A DNA stretch of 60,520 nt, from assembly GCA_016182495.1 (NCBI GenBank), contig JACPGK010000026.1, positions 1 to 60,520 of the forward strand. The letters run 5' to 3'. The stretch comes from Candidatus Kerfeldbacteria bacterium. GTDB taxonomy: Bacteria > Patescibacteriota > Patescibacteriia > UBA9570. Below are positions 1,748-2,234 of this stretch, piece after piece (position 1 is the first letter of the stretch; the number at the start of each line of letters is the position of its first letter). Both the position numbers and the translations under genes were made by a program. The notes under the pieces were generated by a model that saw only the letters and a program-made list of their open reading frames with translations, was not told the origin of the DNA and ran no database searches.

Positions 1748-1806
1748 GCCGACTAGTCGATCGGAGCTTGAATGAAGTGAAAGCGCAGGCCGAGGTAGCT
1801 CAGTGG
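1748..1806 (+). repeat. Direct repeat copy 1, carrying the 5' end of tRNA-Phe
   Basis: This 59-base stretch matches 2122-2180 at 57 positions. Its last part (from 1789) is the acceptor strand and D arm of tRNA-Phe. Here the tRNA is cut off by a palindromic insert (1807-1850); the next tRNA bases, TAGAG, resume at 1851 and then homology ends. It is a tRNA remnant, not a functional gene. Confidence 0.9.
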
Positions 1807-1850
1807 CCCGCCCGCCACGCAAGACGAGCTTGCGAGGCGTTGCGGGCGGG
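1807..1850 (+). repeat. REP-like palindrome inserted in the tRNA-Phe remnant
   Basis: CCCGCCCGC (1807-1815) and GCGGGCGGG (1842-1850) form a 9-bp perfect stem. Inside is a second stem, CGCAAG/CTTGCG. The element sits exactly between CAGTGG and TAGAG of the tRNA D arm, as an insertion would. A similar CCGCCCGC/GCGGGCGG stem occurs at 60455-60493. Confidence 0.75.
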
Positions 1851-1879
1851 TAGAGTAAACGATATTTGATCATTGTCGC

Positions 1880-2116
1880 ATGTATTATACATATGTGTTA
1901 AAAAGTCTTAAGGATGATAAACTATATATTGGTTTTACTAATAACTTAAAACAACGTTTCCAGCAACACCAATTAGGTAAGGTAGCGGCAACAAAAAATC
2001 GTTTACCTATTCAATTAATCTATTTTGAGGCTTGTCTTGAGAAATCAAAGGCGATTGCTAGAGAAAAATATTTCAAGACAGGCTTTGGGAGAAGATTCCT
2101 CAAAACAAGACTATAG
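1880..2116 (+). CDS. GIY-YIG nuclease domain protein
   Basis: A 78-aa single-domain protein of the UvrC/YhbQ-type GIY-YIG family. YTYVLKS (residues 3-9) and LYIGFTNNLKQR (15-26) form the YVL...YIG core with its Arg. A Glu (E51) and a Tyr/Lys-rich helix (AREKYFKTG) follow. Such stand-alone proteins are common in CPR genomes and their role is not settled; relatives act as structure-specific or homing-type nucleases. It lies between two copies of a 59-bp repeat holding the tRNA-Phe 5' part, suggesting it arrived as a mobile unit. Confidence 0.85.
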   Translation: MYYTYVLKSLKDDKLYIGFTNNLKQRFQQHQLGKVAATKNRLPIQLIYFEACLEKSKAIAREKYFKTGFGRRFLKTRL

Positions 2117-2121
2117 TACAG

Positions 2122-2180
2122 GCCGACTAGTCGATCGGAGCTTAAACGAAGTGAAAGCGCAGGCCGAGGTAGCTCAGTGG
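2122..2180 (+). repeat. Direct repeat copy 2, continuing into intact tRNA-Phe
   Basis: Second copy of the 59-base repeat (two mismatches to copy 1, inside the segment CTTAAACGAA versus CTTGAATGAA). It ends inside the D arm of the functional tRNA-Phe, so the GIY-YIG gene lies between a broken and an intact tRNA copy. Confidence 0.9.
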
Positions 2181-2234
2181 TAGAGCAGAGGACTGAAAAT
2201 CCTTGTGTCGCCAGTTCGATCCTGGCCCTCGGCA
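2163..2234 (+). tRNA. tRNA-Phe (GAA)
   Basis: Acceptor GCCGAGG/CCTCGGC, anticodon loop CTGAAAA (anticodon GAA), T arm GCCAG/CTGGC with loop TTCGATC, discriminator A. CCA is not encoded. Its 5' part is duplicated upstream of the GIY-YIG gene. Confidence 0.95.

Follow-up and report, generated by a model that had tools for sequence, protein, structure and literature searches.

A stand-alone gene for a 78-aa GIY-YIG protein, located in a 60,520-nt stretch of Candidatus Kerfeldbacteria DNA (hereafter the window), lies between a hairpin-broken copy of the 5′ part of tRNA-Phe and the intact tRNA-Phe gene, and this layout recurs at many tRNA genes and at some protein genes of other bacteria. We propose, with a probability of about two in three, that the locus is a minimal, intron-less GIY-YIG insertion element that is homing-like and target-rescuing and belongs to a large family in Patescibacteria-like bacteria, in which a GIY-YIG break in a conserved gene would be repaired by copying of the element along with an uninterrupted gene end. 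A preliminary description of this DNA had suggested a minimal element that moves by its own nuclease. That a minimal GIY-YIG element entered the 5′ part of the tRNA and that the tRNA was restored is strongly supported by the recurrence of the layout, by syntenic empty sites and by hybrid target genes.

Results

The features of the locus, by position in the window, are as follows.

1626–1701, + strand: intact tRNA-Ile(gat), upstream neighbour (ARAGORN)
1748–1788, + strand: leader copy 1, 41 nt, opening part of the 59-bp repeat
1789–1806, + strand: broken tRNA-Phe copy, tRNA nt 1–18 (acceptor 5′ strand and first half of the D arm)
1807–1850, no strand: GC-rich hairpin, 44 nt, a clean insert in the D loop of the broken tRNA-Phe copy
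1851–1855, + strand: TAGAG, where the broken copy takes up the tRNA sequence again (tRNA nt 19–23; direct reading)
1880–2116, + strand: stand-alone GIY-YIG nuclease gene, 78 aa
2122–2162, + strand: leader copy 2, 41 nt
2163–2235, + strand: intact (restored) tRNA-Phe(gaa) gene (ARAGORN)
2240–2313, + strand: tRNA-Pro(tgg), downstream neighbour, without a broken copy (ARAGORN)

The direct repeat that the preliminary description had placed on either side of the nuclease gene was recovered at 1748–1806 and 2122–2180; its 59 nt are 97% identical and comprise the 41-nt leader and the first 18 nt of tRNA-Phe. The last 30 nt of leader copy 1 occur in the genome of the bacterium only at the two repeat positions. 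As also described previously, tRNA-Phe is complete only in the downstream copy, and the GIY-YIG ORF is the only one between the repeat copies, with no integrase or transposase there. The present analysis adds three features to that description: the hairpin, the return of the tRNA sequence behind it and, at some loci, a donor origin of the rescue sequence. Folded as DNA, the hairpin reached −20.7 kcal/mol (z −4.9). Since the tRNA sequence resumes behind it, the upstream tRNA-Phe copy is hairpin-interrupted and not merely truncated at G18; we call such a hairpin-broken tRNA copy a ‘decoy’, a name that implies no function. A second hairpin-forming stretch lies right behind tRNA-Ile (1702–1745) and is possibly an older scar on the 3′ side of that gene. 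We rejected an integrase island, since the locus has no integrase gene and the duplicated part is the 5′ and not the 3′ part of the tRNA, and a group I intron, since an Rfam scan of positions 1–8000 returned only tRNAs and one sub-threshold hit and an intact tRNA adjoins.

The ORF at 1880–2116 matched the Pfam GIY-YIG model PF01541 (6.1e-17) over residues 1–69, and across 156 relatives Y16, G18, R26 and E62 were conserved at 100% and Y5 and H30 at 99%. By its domain and its catalytic Tyr, Arg and Glu, the predicted protein is a member of the GIY-YIG nuclease superfamily. Because the GIY-YIG domain fills residues 1–69 of 78, a separate DNA-binding domain for the recognition of long sites is absent. 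A single-sequence search of viral contigs found no relatives of the window protein, and a phage origin was dropped on this ground. The presence of GIY-YIG genes is patchy, with up to 18 copies per genome.

Three relatives from the same family (G001, G002 and G003) carry the PMT-like gene, tRNA-Ile and tRNA-Phe in the order of the window and have neither the GIY-YIG gene nor a tRNA-Phe decoy; the distance between tRNA-Ile and tRNA-Phe at these sites is 278, 6 and 3 nt, respectively. An empty tRNA-Phe site in relatives, the comparison that the preliminary description had proposed, was found here syntenically and not at close range, since the three genomes represent other genera of the family. 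Homing elements are recognized by a site that is occupied in some genomes and empty in others, and such a pairing could in this way be made with three other genera. In an order-level relative (G009), a group I intron (Rfam RF00028; locus L233, 655–876) occupies the anticodon loop of tRNA-Phe.

Relatives of the window protein, taken from related genomes and GTDB, gave a set of 161 loci. Where a codirectional tRNA followed the GIY-YIG gene within 160 nt (n = 86), a hairpin-split copy of that same tRNA, recorded as a split match that spans the junction and is at least 16 nt long, was present upstream of the gene at 51 loci, compared to 0 of 245 controls using a different tRNA; the preliminary description had suggested a search for other GIY-YIG genes beside partial tRNAs, and these are such cases. 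In 45 of 87 cases, the sequence upstream of the gene contained 9 nt or more of that tRNA's 5′ end without mismatch, compared to 0.2% for other tRNAs. All 93 tRNA or tmRNA genes that start within 160 nt past a GIY-YIG stop codon are codirectional with the nuclease gene (0 opposite), and in most 78-aa relatives the stop codon lies 0–20 nt ahead of the tRNA or within it. Most tRNA types are targeted, namely Phe, Lys, Gln, Glu, Leu, Ser, Thr, His, Asn, Gly, Val, Met, Cys, Asp, Tyr, Ile and Arg, and protein genes (NAD-epimerase, glycosyltransferase and glycyl-tRNA synthetase) are targeted as well, one NAD-epimerase site being occupied in two unrelated genomes (L063 and L107). The tRNA-Arg locus L114 belongs to a named isolate, Marixanthotalea marina XHP0103.

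Most inserts in the decoys are hairpins or double hairpins, and many decoys carry two consecutive hairpins. The insert is mostly positioned at nt 8–22 of the tRNA copy, but also at 35–37 and 54–74 (sometimes in the anticodon or T loop), and no target-site duplication surrounds it. At three loci (L097, L111 and L179) the unit is repeated in tandem, which is what repeated self-cutting would produce. On the GIY-YIG tree (83 rows), the tRNA target switched 55 times, compared to a mean of 62 in shuffles; clustering was weak, and we discarded the idea that GIY-YIG lineages are bound to one tRNA type. Such frequent changes of target imply that new target sequence must sometimes be captured.

Other layouts were seen as well. 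At L110, L175 and L185 the arrangement is mirrored, the GIY-YIG gene lying 3′ of the tRNA and the 3′ part of the tRNA being duplicated downstream in hairpin-broken form; at L110 (Ignavibacteria), repeated decoys lie on either side of tRNA-Cys. GIY-YIG genes about 110–140 nt downstream of tmRNA, with spacers rich in hairpins, were found at L049, L143 and L190.

Inverted repeats (score of at least 12) bracket 33 of 165 GIY-YIG genes, compared to about 1% in the control. These elements typically start with CCC and end with GGG, measure about 280–350 bp, and their stop codon falls within the right arm or close to it. An ATG is present at the right junction of 14 out of 27 such elements (random expectation about 15%) and on both sides of 7 out of 27, as if the elements had been inserted at a start codon and had restored it. 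CCC..GGG-bracketed GIY-YIG genes of about 280–330 bp were noted at L037, L042, L044, L047, L057, L059, L108, L130, L142, L165, L168 and L182, most of them placed at the start codon of a protein gene and flanked by ATG on one side or on both. At L176 (judged by eye) and L181, a TIR-bounded GIY-YIG element lies inside, or at the 5′ region of, the RNase P RNA gene, and a second, gene-less hairpin of the same kind is found further along at L181. In a Cloacimonadota MAG, an inverted-repeat element with a GIY-YIG gene (L104, 2501–2734) by eye splits a four-helix-bundle (S23-like) gene, and the joined flanks read SNIAEGDERGS across the junction. We tentatively raise the possibility, to which we give well below even odds, that the GIY-YIG domain is the transposase-like enzyme of a 280–350 bp CCC..GGG element, which would insert at start codons and in tRNA and RNase P RNA genes and restore its target, with gene-less hairpins as its non-autonomous copies; that bare hairpins are deletion derivatives of the TIR-bounded elements is our guess. 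If this were true, the elements would count among the smallest mobile elements that are autonomous and would constitute a natural insert-and-rescue system.

Decoys also occur with no GIY-YIG gene in cis: G003 has a tRNA-Pro decoy with a double hairpin, and G047 has a tRNA-Thr decoy whose hairpin equals that of the window at 39 of 40 core letters. In a small survey of six genomes, within each of which the tRNAs are not independent, 26 of 151 tRNAs in four genomes with GIY-YIG genes had a decoy whose insert can fold (2 of 35 in the genome of the window, with 1 GIY-YIG gene; 10 of 39 in G047, with 12; 8 of 36 in G033, with 10; and 6 of 41 in G123, with 17), compared to 0 of 87 in two GIY-less genomes (0 of 44 and 0 of 43). 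The preliminary description had held that occurrence of the repeat without the nuclease gene would speak against a nuclease-borne element, and this objection stands in part: GIY-less decoys do exist, but neither nuclease-free genome of the survey has any. As decoys were found in the four surveyed genomes with the nuclease and in neither of the two without it, the nuclease may have acted in trans, or its gene may have been lost afterwards. In G063, one of the two GIY-less genomes, six contiguous repeats of tRNA parts were found without a hairpin.

Since GIY-less decoys exist, we considered whether the hairpin itself is the mobile part, a MITE- or REP-like sequence that inserts in tRNA genes with tandem duplication of the target, the GIY-YIG genes being passengers or acting only in trans. 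The near-identity of hairpins (39/40) across different families and the presence of a similar palindrome in a protein gene of the window's own genome are in line with this reading, as are the CCC..GGG TIR-bounded elements if bare hairpins derive from them by deletion, but hairpins of the window type are rare (0–5 per genome) and yet present at most GIY-YIG–tRNA loci, and decoys were confined to the nuclease-bearing genomes among the six surveyed. PF01797 (REP transposase) is, moreover, absent from three genomes with hairpin decoys (G000, that of the window, G123 and G106), which indicates that no REP transposase is required. Overall, we regard a mobile hairpin with incidental nuclease genes as unlikely. 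REP/RAYT palindromes in particular were rejected, as G000 has no PF01797 and no high palindrome copy number, and the rarity of such hairpins rules out a high-copy palindrome background. Four sites in the window's own genome have the palindrome pattern, and only the window hairpin and one in C1 resemble each other; the latter (C1:57447–57480; L131, 1500–1535) is contained, apparently in frame, in a gene for a Cys-rich protein and is reminiscent of Rickettsia palindromic elements.

Comparison of the broken and intact gene ends bears on where the rescue sequence comes from. The codons that differ between the two 5′ ends are synonymous in 5 of 5 cases at L107 (NAD-epimerase), 6 of 7 at L164 (GlyRS) and 5 of 7 at L063 (NAD-epimerase), and the two GlyRS copies at L164 differ in their N-terminal extensions. 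Such differences fit two functional genes that diverged in separate lineages, and not a local duplicate in decay. At L075, a complete foreign tRNA-Val with another acceptor stem lies between a native 5′ GGATCCG and a native 3′ CGGATCC. An inserted donor-type gene end next to a displaced native end, the signature known from mitochondrial elements, was thus found at L107, L164, L063 and L075, and suggests that the element supplies a substitute for the target part that it breaks. Replacement of the whole tRNA at most loci was discarded as a general rule, since clean native 3′ remnants are found only at L075 (L054 and L086 are suggestive by eye).

The same comparison weighs on the simplest alternative, namely that the 5′ end of the tRNA was duplicated locally in tandem and that the GIY-YIG gene and the hairpin landed in the junction later by chance. 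The duplication in the window extends over the leader, with copies 97% identical over 59 nt, and there local tandem duplication fits as well as transfer from a close donor, so that these copies are compatible with either origin of the rescue part, and tandem copies of the unit are known from L097, L111 and L179. We nevertheless consider this explanation very improbable, and for the family as a whole it is already contradicted by the recurrence at unrelated tRNAs and protein genes, the divergence of broken and intact copies as functional genes and the foreign tRNA between native halves at L075. Least credible of all is a purely regulatory layout without mobility, in which a tRNA-leader promoter and the hairpin would control translation of a housekeeping GIY-YIG protein: the strong codirectional bias and the RNA structures 5′ of phage homing-endonuclease genes that govern their translation (PMC2988022) would suit it, but patchy presence, up to 18 copies per genome, empty sites, frequent change of the neighbouring tRNA and gene-less hairpin decoys do not.

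Discussion

In the mechanism that we favour for the GIY-YIG insertion element, the nuclease would break a target gene that is conserved, which in the window is tRNA-Phe, broken in its 5′ half, and repair would copy in the element and an intact version of the 5′ part of the target. The product would be the native leader with a hairpin-broken tRNA 5′ fragment, the nuclease gene and a functional tRNA in full length. The hairpin plausibly marks the break or its vicinity and would make the copy that contains it useless as a target. With the essential function kept, the insertion would be tolerated and hard to delete. We infer from sequence that mobility is driven by the element's own nuclease, and the same holds for cleavage, for where the cut falls, for homing and for what the hairpin does. 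Self-immunity remains unexplained if the D arm alone is the target, since the intact tRNA keeps the uncut D-arm sequence, and the varying position of the hairpin is poorly suited to one fixed cut site. The lack of a DNA-binding part in the enzyme and the existence of gene-less hairpin decoys also weigh against a homing-type reading.

Among known systems, the family appears closest in logic to the mobile endonuclease ORFs with foreign gene ends of fungal mitochondria (Allomyces macrogynus atp6; Glomus atp6, atp9, cox2 and nad3; PMC3630166) and closest in neighbourhood to phage SegB. In the mitochondrial cases, too, an endonuclease ORF (GIY-YIG in Glomus atp9) in an essential gene brings a replacement gene end, the displaced native end persists and the differences are largely synonymous (PMC3630166); however, these ORFs hit the 3′ ends of protein genes, whereas the window family is bacterial, mostly hits tRNA 5′ ends, and has, in the window, an enzyme of 78 aa and a hairpin in the displaced copy. 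SegB of phages T4/T6 is, like the window gene, a free-standing GIY-YIG gene among tRNA genes, and its product cuts tRNA-containing DNA and acts in trans, but it is phage-borne, and the accessible portions of the SegB papers describe no split tRNA copies with hairpins (PMC2988022, PMC13096335). The double-hairpin and repetitive hairpin-forming elements of Allomyces and sponge mitochondria resemble the decoy inserts as short single or double hairpins within genes, in Allomyces without flanking duplications, but unlike the window family they are tied neither to a nuclease gene nor to duplications of tRNA parts (PMC2800124). Genomic islands with a tyrosine integrase also target a tRNA gene and restore it by a duplicated part, whereas the window element is about 0.3 kb, has no integrase and duplicates the 5′ instead of the 3′ part. 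Homing endonucleases in rRNA insertions of CPR bacteria share the bacterial radiation and likewise lie in structured RNA genes; there LAGLIDADG enzymes predominate, often in introns, and the 2024 study of these insertions placed GIY-YIG outside homing spread (PMC11270868). In open-licence papers on CPR, GIY-YIG and tRNA, we found no account of such an arrangement in bacteria.

Overall, the layout is found beside many different tRNA genes across dozens of bacteria that have been little studied, which suggests a selfish element of very small size that is widespread and leaves the essential genes it enters functional. If true, this would account for the presence of as many as 18 small GIY-YIG genes, many next to tRNAs, in many bacteria of this radiation, and for the broken copies around the tRNA genes of some of them. 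It would also give the mitochondrial endonuclease ORFs that bring a new gene end a bacterial, tRNA-targeted counterpart and would parallel, in nature, the synthetic home-and-rescue designs, and it raises the testable question of how a bare 78-aa nuclease domain finds conserved genes.
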